NCBI GenBank assembly: GCA_017461235.1
Contig: JAFTYU010000026.1
Coordinates: 1-32,194, forward strand
DNA length: 32,194 nucleotides
Reading direction: 5' to 3'
Source of the DNA: Clostridia bacterium
Lineage (GTDB): Bacteria; Bacillota; Clostridia; Oscillospirales; Acutalibacteraceae
The position numbers and the translations under genes are program-made. Every line of letters starts with the position of its first letter. The stretch's first letter is position 1. Shown in pieces: positions 1 to 32,194 of this stretch. The notes under the pieces are model-generated. The model had not been told where the DNA came from. It searched no databases and saw nothing but the letters and a program-made list of their open reading frames with translations.

Positions 1-77
1 ACAACTGCAAGTCTCGCCACTCGGACCAAATAAAGCAGATAGCCTATAGGCTGTCTGCGTTGTTTTTTTCTTTTGGT

Positions 78-159
78 GAGAGACTTGAACTCTCTCGCCG
101 AAGGCGAACACAATCGGGTGTTTGCGTAGCAAACTGTAGGGCGCAGCCCTACAAGTCTC
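78..159 (+). repeat. Hairpin core with T-arm inverted repeat (locus A)
   Basis: The outer inverted repeat is GAGACTTG (80-87) with CAAGTCTC (152-159); its right arm is the T-loop and T-stem of the repeated tRNA 3' end. Inside are three hairpins with three-base loops: CGCC-GAA-GGCG (96-106), TTTGC-GTA-GCAAA (121-133) and TAGGGC-GCA-GCCCTA (137-151). The TCGGGTG linker between the first two is shared with loci B and D. Paired stems inside a closing stem give a cloverleaf-like fold. No protein-coding sense was found. Confidence 0.75.
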
Positions 160-175
160 GCCACTCGGACCAAAT

Positions 176-213
176 AAAGCAGATAGCCTATAGGCTGTCT
201 GCTTTGTTTTTTT
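176..213 (+). terminator. Rho-independent terminator of the repeated tRNA 3' end
   Basis: A 13-bp stem (176-188 with 193-205, one G-U pair) is followed by a run of seven T. The first repeat carries the same hairpin at 32-61 with one stem mismatch at position 59. Confidence 0.8.
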
Positions 214-331
214 CTTTTGGTGAGAGACTTGAACTCTCTCGCCGAAGGCGAACACAATCAGAAAACAACTTATCCGACATTTTGCATTAAATTATTGTTT
301 ATCACTCACATCTAATTGTTAATAAATATCC

Positions 332-13577: not shown

Positions 13578-14780
13578 TTATTTGTCGTCATCTTCATCTT
13601 CCGACTCTTTTTCGGGCTCAGGAAAGATTTCAACCTTGATTTTTTCAATTCGTCTGTCTTCAACACTGAGAACCGTAAATTTAACATTTTCAAAGACGAC
13701 TTCGTTCATTTCCCCATCCTTGGGAATACACTGGAGCTCATCCATTATATATCCTGCAAGAGTTTCATAATCACCCTCGGGAAGTTCTTTGCCGATGAGT
13801 TCATCTATTTCTTCGATATCAATAGTACCGTCAACGGTAAATGTATTATCATCGATTTTTGAAATTTCTTCATCCTCGTGGTCATATTCGTCCTGAATAT
13901 TACCCATAACCGCCTCGACTATATCTTCCAGAGTAACGATACCTGCTGTTCCACCGTATTCATCAACAACCACAGCCATCTGCAAACGGCTTGCGCGCAT
14001 TTCTTTAAAAAGCTCGCCACAGGCTTTGGTTTCGGGTATAAAGTAAGGCTCACGCATAATCTCGCGCAAAAGCTTTTTTGCAGGCATTTGTTTACCGATA
14101 TATTTGAGAAGGTCTTTAACGTAAACTATACCCACAATATTATCTATATCTTCCTCGTACAGGGGAATTCTTGATCTGCCGTTTTCAATAGCAAGCTGAA
14201 TAAAGTCATCTACAGTTGTATCGTTAACATCCGCCGCAACCACGTCTGTACGGTGAGTCATAACGTCACCTGCATCGATGTCATCAAACTCAAAGATGTT
14301 GTTGATCATTTCCTTCTGATCGTCTTCTATAACACCTTTTTCGCCGCCTACGTCAACCATCATACGAATTTCTTCTTCGGTAACGCTTTCTTCGTTGGCA
14401 TTGGGGTCGAAGCCCAGAATTCTAACAACCGTATTTGTTGAGAAGGATAAAAATCTCACAAAAGGACTTGTTATTTTTGAAATAAACAACAGGGGTTTTG
14501 CAACCATAAACGCAACTTTTTCGGGAACCTGCATACCTATACGTTTAGGTACAAGTTCACCTAATACAAGTGAGAAGTATGACATAATAAGGGTTATAAG
14601 CACAACCGCAACAGGTGAAATGATGCTTTCAGGAACATCAAATCTTGATGTAACGGCATCTGTCAGCATTTCGGCAAATGATGTTGCCGCTGATGCAGAT
14701 GTCAAAAATCCTGCAAGAGTGATGCCTATCTGAATAGTGGATAAAAATCTGGTAGGATTATCAGTAAGCTTTAAAACCAA
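13578..14780 (-). CDS. CNNM/HlyC-CorC transporter, main part (downstream of a frameshift)
   Basis: About 400 residues covering most of a CorC/HlyC-type protein. The DUF21 membrane domain (VLKLTDNPTRFLSTIQIGITLAGF, LITLIMSYFSLVLGELVPKRIG) is followed by paired CBS domains (MTHRTDVVAADVNDTTVDDF, and the segment containing MAVVVDEYGGTAGIVTLEDI) and a C-terminal CorC_HlyC domain ending in an acidic tail. The family is linked to Mg2+ or Co2+ transport and resistance. This frame has no convincing start of its own (only a TTG at 14780, no ribosome binding site). The N-terminus is in another frame at 14771-14992. Restoring one A to the A-run at 14787-14791 (T-run on +) gives a continuous 471-residue protein. 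Confidence 0.85.
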   Translation of the reverse strand: MVLKLTDNPTRFLSTIQIGITLAGFLTSASAATSFAEMLTDAVTSRFDVPESIISPVAVVLITLIMSYFSLVLGELVPKRIGMQVPEKVAFMVAKPLLFISKITSPFVRFLSFSTNTVVRILGFDPNANEESVTEEEIRMMVDVGGEKGVIEDDQKEMINNIFEFDDIDAGDVMTHRTDVVAADVNDTTVDDFIQLAIENGRSRIPLYEEDIDNIVGIVYVKDLLKYIGKQMPAKKLLREIMREPYFIPETKACGELFKEMRASRLQMAVVVDEYGGTAGIVTLEDIVEAVMGNIQDEYDHEDEEISKIDDNTFTVDGTIDIEEIDELIGKELPEGDYETLAGYIMDELQCIPKDGEMNEVVFENVKFTVLSVEDRRIEKIKVEIFPEPEKESEDEDDDK

Positions 14781-30833: not shown

Positions 30834-30867
30834 AAAAACAGAACCCACACAATAAGTGCAAGTTCTG
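30834..30867 (-). terminator. Duplicated terminator in locus B
   Basis: On the minus strand CAGAAC-TTGCAC and GTGTGG-GTTCTG pair with three G-T pairs (30867-30839), followed by T5. It is the second copy of the tRNA-Leu terminator and has changed on both arms while still pairing. Confidence 0.7.
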
Positions 30868-30884
30868 TTTTGGTGCCGGTGACC

Positions 30885-30961
30885 GGGGTCGACGGGCTCT
30901 GCCCGTCATTCGCTACGCGAACACCCGATTATGTTCGGCTTCGCCGAGGCGGTTCGACCCC
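30885..30961 (-). repeat. Hairpin core with T-arm inverted repeat (locus B)
   Basis: The outer inverted repeat is GGGGTCGA (30885-30892) with TCGACCCC (30954-30961). CGGTTCGACCCC (30950-30961) on + is an inverted 12-base copy of the tRNA-Leu T-arm. Internal hairpins: GACGGGC-TCT-GCCCGTC (30891-30907), TTCGC-TAC-GCGAA (30909-30921) and CGGC-TTC-GCCG (30936-30946). Read on the minus strand it aligns closely with loci A and D, including TCGGGTGTT. Confidence 0.8.
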
Positions 30962-30979
30962 TTCGTTGTTATTAGACAT

Positions 30980-31014
30980 AAAAAAAAAGAACTTACACAA
31001 TAAGTGCAAGTTCT
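30980..31014 (-). terminator. Terminator of tRNA-Leu
   Basis: On the minus strand AGAACTTGCAC and GTGTAAGTTCT pair (31014-30988, one G-T pair), followed by about nine T. Confidence 0.9.
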
Positions 31015-31018
31015 ATTT

Positions 31019-31105
31019 TGGTGCCGGTGACCGGGGTCGAACCGGTACGGTATCGCTACCACTGGATTTTGAGTCCAGCACGTCTGCCAATTCCATCACA
31101 CCGGC
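31019..31105 (-). tRNA. tRNA-Leu(CAA)
   Basis: An 87-base class II tRNA with encoded CCA. The acceptor GCCGGTG pairs with CACCGGC. The anticodon stem CTGGA/TCCAG holds loop CTCAAAA, anticodon CAA (UUG codons). A long variable arm and T-arm ACCGG-TTCGACC-CCGGT fit tRNA-Leu. Confidence 0.95.
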
Positions 31106-31120
31106 AAATATTACTGACTT

Positions 31121-31149
31121 ATTATATTATATTGTTTACAAAAAATCAA
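31121..31149 (-). promoter_or_regulatory. Sigma-A promoter of tRNA-Leu
   Basis: On the minus strand TTGATT (31149-31144), 17 bases and TATAAT (31126-31121), 15 bases before the mature 5' end at 31105. Confidence 0.8.
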
Positions 31150-31223
31150 TATTAATTTTTGAAATATTAAAAAATTAAACCTGAACAAAAAACAAAGTTT
31201 TGTTATTCAAAAACTAAAAAGAA

Positions 31224-31259
31224 AAAATAAAAAAACCTTGAACACAAAGCTCAAGGTTT
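31224..31259 (-). terminator. Duplicated terminator in locus C
   Basis: The same stem as the tRNA-Glu terminator, AAACCTTGA/TCAAGGTTT (31259-31233 on minus) plus T-run, 188 bases further on. Confidence 0.8.
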
Positions 31260-31272
31260 GTGGTGACCCGGA

Positions 31273-31389
31273 CGAGAATCGTCAAGGCAAGCCTTGACGA
31301 TTTGCTTCGCAAATATCCTATTTTATGTCCCTTTCGGCTCCGCCCTTGGCGAACCGCCGAAAGATGGACGATTGTGAGTTCGATTCTCT
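31273..31389 (-). repeat. Divergent, longer hairpin core (locus C)
   Basis: The outer inverted repeat is GAGAATCG (31274-31281) with CGATTCTC (31381-31388). GAGTTCGATTCTC (31376-31388) on + is an inverted 13-base copy of the tRNA-Glu T-arm. Inside are CGTCAAGGC-AA-GCCTTGACG (31280-31299), ATTTGC-TTC-GCAAAT (31300-31314), and a larger hairpin closed by CTTTCGGC/GCCGAAAG (about 31335-31367). Architecture matches loci A, B and D, but the sequence is clearly different. Confidence 0.75.
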
Positions 31390-31411
31390 GTTTATCTTTC
31401 AATAAAAAGAA

Positions 31412-31447
31412 AAAATAAAAAAACCTTGAACACAAAGCTCAAGGTTT
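31412..31447 (-). terminator. Terminator of tRNA-Met-tRNA-Glu
   Basis: On the minus strand AAACCTTGA and TCAAGGTTT pair (31447-31421), followed by T7. Confidence 0.9.
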
Positions 31448-31448
31448 G

Positions 31449-31523
31449 TGGTGACCCGGACGAGAATCGAACTCGTGTTACCGCCGTGAAAGGGCGGTGT
31501 CTTAACCGCTTGACCACCGGGCC
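31449..31523 (-). tRNA. tRNA-Glu(UUC)
   Basis: A 75-base tRNA with encoded CCA. GGCCCGG pairs with CCGGGTC. Anticodon stem CCGCC/GGCGG holds loop CTTTCAC, anticodon TTC. It is 61 bases downstream of tRNA-Met on the same strand, with no terminator between, so cotranscription is likely. Confidence 0.95.
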
Positions 31524-31584
31524 GTATATGAGAGGCTCAAGAGCCCTTTTATGTAACACCTTTCGTAGGTAAGTGTGTTGGAAC

Positions 31585-31661
31585 TGGTAGCGGCAGTGGG
31601 ATTCGAACCTACGACCAATCGGGTATGAACCGAGTACTCTAGCCAGCTGAGCTATACCGCC
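31585..31661 (-). tRNA. tRNA-Met(CAU), elongator type
   Basis: A 77-base tRNA with encoded CCA. Anticodon stem CTCGG/CCGAT holds loop TTCATAC, anticodon CAT; T-arm GTAGG-TTCGAAT-CCCAC. The acceptor GGCGGTA fits elongator Met. It lacks the C1-A72 mismatch of initiator tRNA. Lysidine-modified tRNA-Ile(CAU) is a less likely alternative. Confidence 0.9.
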
Positions 31662-31724
31662 ATATATATGAACAACATACATACCTACGCAGGCGATTTG
31701 CGCTCTCTTTCCGAAAGCCTGTTA

Positions 31725-31753
31725 ATTATAATATGCAAAAGGTGTTTTGTCAA
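31725..31753 (-). promoter_or_regulatory. Sigma-A promoter of tRNA-Met-tRNA-Glu
   Basis: A perfect consensus on the minus strand: TTGACA (31753-31748), 17 bases, TATAAT (31730-31725). Confidence 0.9.
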
Positions 31754-31816
31754 TACCTTTTTACAAAAAAATTTAATGTTTTCAAAAATTATTTTATTTA
31801 ATCGCAAAATTACCCC

Positions 31817-31845
31817 TTGACAACCTTAATATTTATATGTATAAT
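31817..31845 (+). promoter_or_regulatory. Sigma-A promoter of tRNA-Gly-tRNA-Arg
   Basis: A perfect consensus: TTGACA (31817-31822), 17 bases, TATAAT (31840-31845), 14 bases before the tRNA. It diverges from the tRNA-Met-Glu promoter. Confidence 0.92.
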
Positions 31846-31858
31846 ATCTCTTGCATTT

Positions 31859-31934
31859 GCGGATGTAGCTCATCTGGTAGAGCGCCACCTTGCCAAGGTG
31901 GAGGTAGCGAGTTCGAGCCTCGTCATCCGCTCCA
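31859..31934 (+). tRNA. tRNA-Gly(GCC)
   Basis: A 76-base tRNA with encoded CCA. Acceptor GCGGATG pairs with CATCCGC. Anticodon stem CCACC/GGTGG holds loop TTGCCAA, anticodon GCC. It is five bases from the following tRNA-Arg. Confidence 0.96.
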
Positions 31935-31939
31935 TATAC

Positions 31940-32016
31940 GCGCCGGTAGCTCAGTTGGATAGAGTGTCTGGCTACGAACCAGAAGGTCAGGGGTTCGAGT
32001 CCCTTCCGGCGCGCCA
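31940..32016 (+). tRNA. tRNA-Arg(ACG)
   Basis: A 77-base tRNA with encoded CCA. Acceptor GCGCCGG pairs with CCGGCGC. Anticodon stem TCTGG/CCAGA holds loop CTACGAA, anticodon ACG, whose A34 is normally deaminated to inosine. T-arm GGGG-TTCGAGT-CCC(T) is the source of the repeated and inverted copies in locus D. Confidence 0.96.
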
Positions 32017-32019
32017 AAA

Positions 32020-32056
32020 ACAGAGTAATCACATTTGTGGTTGCTCTGTTTTTTTG
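32020..32056 (+). terminator. Terminator of tRNA-Gly-tRNA-Arg
   Basis: A 14-bp stem with two G-T pairs (32020-32033 with 32036-32049) and a T-run to 32055. The beginning of a second copy lies at 32169-32194. Confidence 0.9.
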
Positions 32057-32071
32057 TTGTTTCGAAATTTT

Positions 32072-32152
32072 GGGACTCGAACCCCCACTCGGCGAAGCCG
32101 AACATACTCGGGTGTTCGCGTAGCGAACGATGGGCGGAGCCGATCGAGTCCC
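32072..32152 (+). repeat. Hairpin core with T-arm inverted repeat (locus D)
   Basis: GGGACTCGAACCCC (32072-32085) is a perfect 14-base reverse complement of the tRNA-Arg T-arm. It pairs with TCGAGTCCC (32144-32152) as the outer stem. Internal hairpins: CGGC-GAA-GCCG (32090-32100), TTCGC-GTA-GCGAA (32115-32127) and CGAT-G-GGC-GGA-GCC-G-ATCG (32128-32146). An alternative stem CGAACA/TGTTCG competes with the second hairpin. Confidence 0.82.
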
Positions 32153-32194
32153 TTCCGGCGCGCCAAAAACAGAGTAATCACATTTGTGGTTGCT

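Follow-up and report, generated by a model that had tools for sequence, protein, structure and literature searches.

Introduction

The described systems that come closest to the subject of this study are integrons, in which the crossover lies at G|TT, tRNA-targeting integrative elements and their remnants, integrative mobile elements exploiting Xer (IMEX) such as the CTX phage, which host Xer integrates through a folded single-stranded site, the short palindromes with small loops known as repetitive extragenic palindromic (REP) sequences and bacterial interspersed mosaic elements (BIME), associated with REP-associated tyrosine transposases (RAYT), and tycheposons, large gene-bearing mobile elements with their own recombinases that use tRNA 3′ ends. 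In the integron attC site, inverted core sites form two pairs and there are extrahelical bases, according to the accessible part of PMC3053210. Here, hairpin units that follow tRNA genes are described, starting from a window of 32,194 nucleotides that is one entire contig (JAFTYU010000026.1, G000:C8) of the 2.15 Mb draft genome, in 43 contigs, of a Clostridia bacterium (genome G000). The units are real, systematic and without description in the sources searched. The literature search, which left aside subscription papers and preprints and included the accessible parts of PMC3053210, PMC8946536 and PMC9897764, returned no description of them. It is considered somewhat probable that they are site-specific cassettes inserted at tRNA T-loops, each with an attC-like foldable site and working in an integron-like manner.

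Results

Anatomy of the units

On the strand of its tRNA, a unit starts with the segment from the T-loop position R57 to CCA (20 nt) and a terminator hairpin with a T-run; after a short spacer come the inverted T-arm copy and a core of hairpins, and the unit ends where the next R57-to-CCA copy begins. The original prediction, read from the letters of the window, had placed this architecture behind tRNA-Leu, a tRNA-Met-Glu pair and a tRNA-Gly-Arg pair, and the five tRNAs, the T-loop-to-CCA copies and the terminators were all recovered where it had put them. Its repeat shifts of 148, 188 and 149 bp reappeared as direct repeats of 59, 67 and 51 nt at tRNA-Leu, tRNA-Glu and tRNA-Arg, and the inverted T-arms, predicted to have 12-14 bases, measure 12, 13 and 14 nt. 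tRNA-Met and tRNA-Gly carry no unit in the window, also as predicted.

On the minus strand, tRNA-Leu(caa) (31019..31105) is followed by a 148 bp unit (30891..31038) made up of the near T-loop-CCA (31019-31038), a terminator (about 30984-31018), the inverted T-arm (30950-30961) and a hairpin core of type A (30891-30949), beyond which lie the far tRNA copy from R57 to CCA (30871..30890) and the terminator hairpin behind it (30834..30870). tRNA-Glu(ttc), the last of the Met-Glu pair (31449..31523, minus strand), has a 188 bp unit (31281..31468) with the near T-loop-CCA at 31449-31468, the inverted T-arm at 31376-31388 and a type-B core at 31281-31375, followed by the far T-loop-to-CCA copy (31261..31280) and its terminator (31215-31260). 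tRNA-Arg(acg), the last of the Gly-Arg pair (31940..32016, plus strand), has a 149 bp unit (31997..32145) with the T-loop-CCA at 31997-32016, a terminator at 32017-32053, the inverted T-arm at 32072-32085 and a type-A core at 32086-32145. A covariance model for type-A sites, described below, matches the Leu unit at 30881-30964 and the Arg unit at 32070-32155, and the Glu unit weakly at 31271-31390 (35.7 bits). The second tRNA-Arg copy (32146-32165) and the start of a further unit occupy 32146..32194, up to the contig end, and the array probably goes on in contig C36, where two units of 150 bp precede a truncated final one. At the left end of the window, 9..259 on the plus strand, lies the tail of a tRNA-Pro(ggg) array that begins on contig C30, with T-loop-CCA copies at 9-28 and 153-172, inverted T-arms at 78-92 and 222-236, one complete type-A site matched by the model (78-162) and a last unit truncated within its core. 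Both window ends thus sit inside arrays.

In the whole genome the first unit measures 144-188 bp at 12 of 13 tRNAs, the exception being Pro(tgg) with 257 bp, a longer and different tRNA copy and no inverted T-arm; nearly all short units fall in the range of 136-190 bp and arrays reach up to four units. Three core types share the common frame only and have visibly different hairpins when compared by eye. Type A is found in G000 at Arg, Gln(ttg), Leu(caa), Leu(gag), Lys, Pro(cgg), Pro(ggg), Ser(gct), Val and the transfer-messenger RNA (tmRNA) gene, type B at Glu, Tyr and the second Pro(ggg) unit, and type C at Gln(ctg). The inverted T-arm fits its own tRNA at a mean of 13.6 of 15 positions and other tRNAs at 10.4 (64 units). 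In hairpin-type units, R57 at the distal junction follows on the end of the core instead of on the 5′ T-arm half. The proposal that the segment from T-arm to CCA is an attachment region stands as regards insertion in the T-loop, but there is no plain att repeat: the far 5′ T-arm half is missing, and in its place is the hairpin core, which begins with the inverted T-arm that pairs with the T copy.

Prevalence in the genome

G000 has 31 tRNA genes, ten of which are internal, with the next same-strand tRNA within 120 nt, and 21 terminal; one terminal tRNA is cut by a contig end, leaving 20 assessable. Hairpin-type units, defined by the inverted T-arm, occur at 12 of these 20 and at the tmRNA gene, which adjoins smpB. 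Units shorter than 300 bp, including the one of other type at Pro(tgg), occur at 13 of the 20. The rest are tRNA-Ala(ggc) with a 1.3 kb gene cassette and six without anything. It is only inside the window that an element stands behind every tRNA transcription unit, as had been claimed. Leu(cag), one of the empty six, has a 4-mismatch copy and a partial core 2.3 kb downstream. The 10 internal tRNAs carry no unit, but this "0 of 10" is no independent evidence, because the gaps leave no room by definition (the next tRNA is 5-61 nt off in the clusters measured); tRNA-Glu counts as internal in the empty relative G013.

At 45 of 79 tRNA loci with enough flank, the 400 nt downstream of the tRNA hold, on its own strand, an 18-nt T-loop-CCA copy with at most 3 mismatches, a fraction that does not express prevalence, since many loci were collected for having matches and one genome is present twice (G031 and SIG569 are one genome under two names). 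The controls gave no match on the reverse strand, none upstream on either strand, none in shuffled sequence and one in the downstream sequence of another tRNA. T-loop-CCA copies are present beyond chance.

Spread among genomes

The covariance model (R1) was built on 29 of 52 distinct type-A sites, and matches in the genus were counted at E ≤0.001. Among the 22 genomes of the genus, R1 found 137 matches, spread over 19, and left three without any (G009, G010 and G030); with stricter filters, neither 294 further genomes from the order nor another 397 from the phylum had a match. G000 accounts for 17 of the matches. In 11 of them the match lies in the unit adjoining its tRNA or tmRNA; four more belong to array parts that are distal or separated by a contig break, and the last two have a T copy beside them but lack a neighbouring tRNA. 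The check proposed with the original prediction thus came out in its favour, the matches adjoining tRNA or tmRNA 3′ ends (15 of 17 in such arrays) and not being scattered. An exact core pattern was found in 26 stretches from metagenome-assembled genomes of Oscillospiraceae and Clostridia, 13 of them from ruminant gut, and in no viral contig. Carriage by phages or plasmids was rejected, the Arg site having no match in 50,697 phage and 72,556 plasmid records; among the 20 of 101 plasmid records listed by megablast, matches cover 6-8% of the query at tRNA-Glu and are uninformative on units.

The frame extends further than the type-A core. A narrow pattern for one T-arm group, with 45-74 nt between inverted arm and T copy, matched 5 of 394 genomes of the order, G000 included, and the whole frame with different hairpins was read at L289 (tRNA-Gln) and L290 (tRNA-Arg). 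A wider pattern matched 9 of 391 genomes of the class, again including G000. L300 (tRNA-Ala) has the frame and a second, truncated unit, and L292 (tRNA-Glu) has it inside a tRNA cluster, with no clear terminator and an incomplete CCA in the copy. L288, L291, L293 and L299 were discarded when no tRNA was found on reading, and L294 and L298 when the tRNA gene was read on the other strand; the printed matches of L295 and L296 equal that of L294, with one base apart in L295. These counts are floors, the patterns giving only 2 (narrow) and 7 (wider) matches even in G000. The frame with other hairpins occurs in at least four further families, at least five in all.

Type-A cores within one tRNA species across genomes have a mean distance of 0.153, compared with 0.191 for shuffled labels, relatedness among genomes being uncontrolled. 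Core lineages mostly keep to their tRNA, as would be expected if a cassette must restore the end of that very tRNA. Hopping of cores between tRNAs is unsupported by the distances, apart from one identical core at Leu(taa) and Met of G008. At L022 (G005), tRNA-Leu(caa) is followed by an apparent core end and a tRNA-Arg T copy, a chimera that suggests recombination between arrays of different tRNAs.

Fold and covariation

In alignment A1 the sites fold into an outer stem, formed by the inverted T-arm and the T copy, and three hairpins, with 98.6% of 691 cells paired. Changes on both sides of a pair were seen in 11 pairs and 81 cells, with 7.7 and 24.2 in shuffles and maxima of 3 and 10 in slid structures, and double changes are present in all four helices; the sites are related to each other and the structure was drawn from the same sites, so the test leans towards structure. 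In the first hairpin, C-G replaces G-C in 11 of 29 sites with no intermediate. A candidate second site arm, composed of the 3′ half of the inverted T-arm and the core middle, was rejected when by eye it seemed not to follow the T-stem.

Compensatory changes in every helix, the position downstream of the tRNA on its own strand and an inverted T-arm that could pair with the T-arm are what would be seen if the unit were an RNA device, a read-through transcript structure that regulates or mimics the tRNA as decoy, processing signal or attenuator. Such a role is nevertheless highly improbable. G-T pairs are almost absent from the units (4 of 681), as compared with 29 of 391 in acceptor stems and 35 of 270 in T-stems of 56 tRNAs, and this points to pairing at the level of DNA rather than RNA, whether through function or through template switching at inverted repeats. 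In the units read, a terminator-like hairpin stands ahead of the inverted T-arm, the site in the tRNA-Met array of G008 stays with the next T copy despite intervening genes, and occupancy differs among relatives. Rfam, searched over the window, part of L133 and 8 further loci, gave nothing but tRNA above the gathering score on the site.

Hairpin repeats of the Gut-1 RNA (RF01706) were seen after T-copy terminators at L133:8305-8473, beside the tmRNA unit of G000, and at L244:14224-14295 and 14641-14717 at tRNA-Tyr of G008, one of them inside a 421 bp unit before its site.

Occupied and empty sites

The comparison of occupied and empty sites covered the loci other than Arg of G000 and Leu(taa) of G007, which are contig-cut, and the truncated Val of G013. 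As the original prediction had asked for, an empty site was found: tRNA-Glu is without a unit in G013 and with one in G000, G006 and SIG569/G031. Identity to G013 is 92-95% across the 153-163 bp that end with the next tRNA-Leu, a gene which makes up more than half of this stretch. In SIG569/G031 it is the far terminator that resembles the empty G013 site (local score 30.5, the near one scoring 11.5). A native far terminator and a foreign near one indicate insertion in the T-loop, contrary to a duplication of native sequence.

Unit numbers also differ among relatives. At tRNA-Lys, one unit in G000, two in G006 and two with a truncated third in G008 stand before a homologous flank, and at tRNA-Pro(ggg), where the distal flank is 86% identical over 452 bp, G011 has one unit and SIG569 two with different cores. 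At tRNA-Thr(cgt), the order in G018 is tRNA, gene cassette, unit and flank, and in G032 it is tRNA, unit, a different gene cassette and the flank shared with G018 (93% over 345 bp). Neither cassette has the hairpin site at its end, where a plain T-arm copy of greater length stands instead.

An origin with no recombinase, in which replication slippage and template switching at the T-arm palindrome would give rise to the inverted T-arm and the tandem copy, hairpin repeats would insert and unequal crossing-over would produce the arrays, agrees with the frequent identity of near and far copies (66 of 78 T copies are identical to the end of their own tRNA and 12 differ at 1-4 positions). It also agrees with the strict pairing, as template switching between inverted repeats can yield pairing without G-U according to the accessible parts of PMC8794818 and PMC7202029. 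This origin is judged improbable. The slippage duplication offered as an alternative in the original prediction fails at tRNA-Glu of SIG569/G031, where the near terminator is unlike the native one; one type-A core is shared by 9 tRNAs plus the tmRNA gene in G000 and by 17 tRNA species in the genus; and a gene-bearing segment terminates in a hairpin site.

Genes within arrays

The gene-bearing segment in question is the third of the tRNA-Met array of G008 (2,377 bp), which encodes a DUF4760 protein and an amidase and has a complete type-A site at its end. A segment of about 9.8 kb at tRNA-Leu(taa) of the same genome likewise ends in a hairpin site and holds a response regulator, a histidine kinase, an ABC ATPase, an FtsX permease, a DUF5677 protein, TnpV and two family-less proteins. 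No integrase domain was found in the 2 proteins of the former or the 8 of the latter, and the short units encode no integrase because they have no room for one. The description of the units as tiny gene-less elements is thus correct in that no integrase gene is present in the units and segments examined, while they sometimes bear genes and sometimes form arrays. In G000 the tRNA-Leu(gag) array is interrupted by 5,630 bp encoding AIPR, GmrSD_N/HNH, an EcoRI-type methylase and Abi_2, between T-loop copies and with no hairpin site at its end.

Stretches of this kind fit the view that the units are deleted remnants, similar to cis-mobilizable elements (CIME), of phages, integrative and conjugative elements (ICE) or transposons that used tyrosine or serine integrases, the hairpins being passenger repeats. 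The Leu(gag) stretch bounded by T-loop copies speaks for it, as do the gene cassettes with longer plain tRNA copies and no inverted T-arm at Ala of G000 and Thr of G018 and G032, the serine-recombinase-type genes or TnpV in or beside arrays of G011 (where the protein was named by eye), G000:C7 and G008, and the tyrosine integrase matches in 21 of 22 genomes. tRNA fragments left by integration are common, according to the accessible part of PMC9897764. Against it, one size range, one frame and one covarying fold beside 12 tRNAs would be unlikely to arise at random, and the 5′ T-arm half is missing from the distal junction of the hairpin type. On balance this origin is rather unlikely, although it deserves more weight than slippage or an RNA device.

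Two further arrangements were noted at tRNA genes of G000. Downstream of tRNA-Ala(ggc) on contig C1 (L232), a barnase-like ribonuclease and barstar, followed by a second barstar-like open reading frame (ORF), are flanked by long tRNA-Ala copies. Another hairpin-array family, ATCCA..hairpin followed by TATCATCA or TGTAATC repeats, stands right behind the tRNA terminator after Thr(cgt) (L101), Arg(ccg) (L120), Ala(ggc) (L118) and a Tyr T copy (L104).

Candidate recombinases

PF00589 (tyrosine integrase) was searched over the 22 genomes of the genus. G000 has two matching proteins, and G005, G008, G017 and G031 have a single match each, an Xer-like protein of 342-352 residues. G003 has no match and G012 a different one, both being incomplete drafts. 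The integron integrase model TIGR02249 (cut-off 265), scanned against these matching proteins of G008, G031 and G000, drafts that may miss genes, gave 83 bits in G008, 89 in G031 and 55 and 56 for the two proteins of G000; the Xer-like proteins of G008 and G031 also fall below the XerC and XerD cut-offs. A Y1 transposase was rejected as candidate, PF01797 matching 9 of 22 genomes and none of the unit-rich G000, G006, G008 and G013. The orphan tyrosine recombinase of G000:C33 was rejected as mobiliser, a close homologue being present in 1 of 18 other genomes of the genus searched (G013, 79%). Neither of the two families searched across the genus, PF00589 and PF01797, yields a candidate whose distribution follows the units, serine recombinases having been left out of the genus-wide search.

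The protein on C33 (L132:4057-4902) is a solitary tyrosine recombinase of 281 residues with relatives in G013 and G021 and several copies in G024. At the end of G000:C7 (L134:10542-11297), the 3′ end of a recombinase zinc-ribbon protein, of the large serine recombinase type, abuts the CCA end of a tRNA-Leu cassette.

Discussion

In the reading favoured here, a small cassette would insert into the T-loop of a tRNA or tmRNA between C56 and R57 and supply its own R57-to-CCA copy and terminator, so that the tRNA would remain whole while the native 3′ end and terminator would be shifted downstream. The attachment site of the cassette would be the inverted T-arm with the hairpin core, which together with the next T-loop copy would fold into a closed stem with hairpins, similar to attC, the T-arm of the tRNA serving as attI. 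Tandem arrays would result from repeated insertion and homologous exchange between copies, and some cassettes would carry genes. Enzyme-driven recombination on a folded single-stranded substrate, mobilisation in trans and circular forms are what we infer from this arrangement. A wider form of the proposal is put forward tentatively, and we think it possible though doubtful: tRNA and tmRNA genes in this genus and, with different hairpin cores, in several other Clostridia families may be integron-like platforms at which a trans-acting recombinase captures cassettes, with or without accessory genes, through a folded single-stranded site that mimics the T-arm, with separate cassette pools for each tRNA because a cassette must rebuild the 3′ end of that tRNA.

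Several observations weigh against the cassette reading. No recombinase is identified, and PF00589 matches of like size and score class are present in G009, G010 and G030, the genomes with no model matches. No circles or transfer events were seen in the genomes of the genus, all of which are drafts. The folded site restores the 3′ side of the T-arm only and no full two-arm site. The covariation free of G-U can be explained by template switching at inverted repeats with no selection, and further pair types show no excess (18, with 18.3 in shuffles). In 29 of 64 units the T-arm of another tRNA species fits the inverted T-arm equally well, because T-arms resemble each other. The native terminator is clearly displaced at one hairpin-type locus only. 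At tRNA-Glu of G000 and G006 the near and far terminators resemble each other and not that of the empty site, so that a later exchange between copies has to be assumed. In SIG569 another 0.7-0.8 kb, containing an ORF of 173 residues and with no T copy at its end, lies ahead of the shared tRNA-Glu flank. Cores at different tRNAs of the same genome are no closer than chance (0.207, with 0.19 in shuffles), and the likeness of cores by tRNA may be plain descent. The 9.8 kb segment, doubtful as a gene cassette because TnpV lies near its end, may be a transposon remnant between two units.

If the favoured reading is true, the units constitute a cassette-insertion system across the tRNA genes of gut bacteria in which no integron integrase was found, one that would account for arrays of tRNA fragments, offer an exchange route for accessory genes and provide a natural minimal substrate of about 85 nt for site-specific insertion. 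It raises the question of which recombinase would recognise the T-arm in duplex form as well as in the folded strand. Even without an enzyme, it would have to be explained why so many tRNA genes in one genus carry hairpin units that covary.

Among the known systems, REP and BIME share with the units short palindromes with small loops, but the units stand at tRNA and tmRNA 3′ ends and the Y1 domain was not found in four unit-rich genomes. Like tycheposons, they use tRNA 3′ ends and partial tRNA copies, but they are small and usually gene-less. As in IMEX, inverted site copies fold into a substrate on which a host recombinase could act in trans; the target of the units is the T-arm and not dif.

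The likeness to tRNA-targeting elements (phages, ICE, CIME) is closer, with insertion in the T-loop or 3′ part, a restored 3′ end and a displaced copy downstream, and the tRNA 3′ end is duplicated at both unit junctions, as is characteristic of ICE, CIME and integrative and mobilizable elements (IME). In contrast to them, the units measure about 150 bp, are usually gene-less, have no integrase, share a conserved hairpin core and occupy over half of the terminal tRNAs that could be assessed in a single genome. A full att core with both T-arm halves at the distal junction is found in plain-type cassettes only and not in hairpin-type units, which therefore lie outside the tRNA islands defined by a plain att repeat.

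By integrase and attI the units are not integrons. No IntI was found in the proteins scanned, the insertion point is the T-arm of a tRNA or tmRNA and not an attI beside an integrase, and the units are anchored on the T-arms of many tRNA genes. Their crossover would lie at C56|R57, and with each unit come a terminator and a restored tRNA 3′ end, the inverted arm varying by tRNA. One pair of inverted sites, the inverted T-arm and the T copy, covaries. Like integron cassettes, they extend from just past the crossover to a palindromic foldable site at the 3′ end with a variable middle, and like integron arrays they line up in tandem at one anchor site, gene-less and gene-bearing cassettes together.

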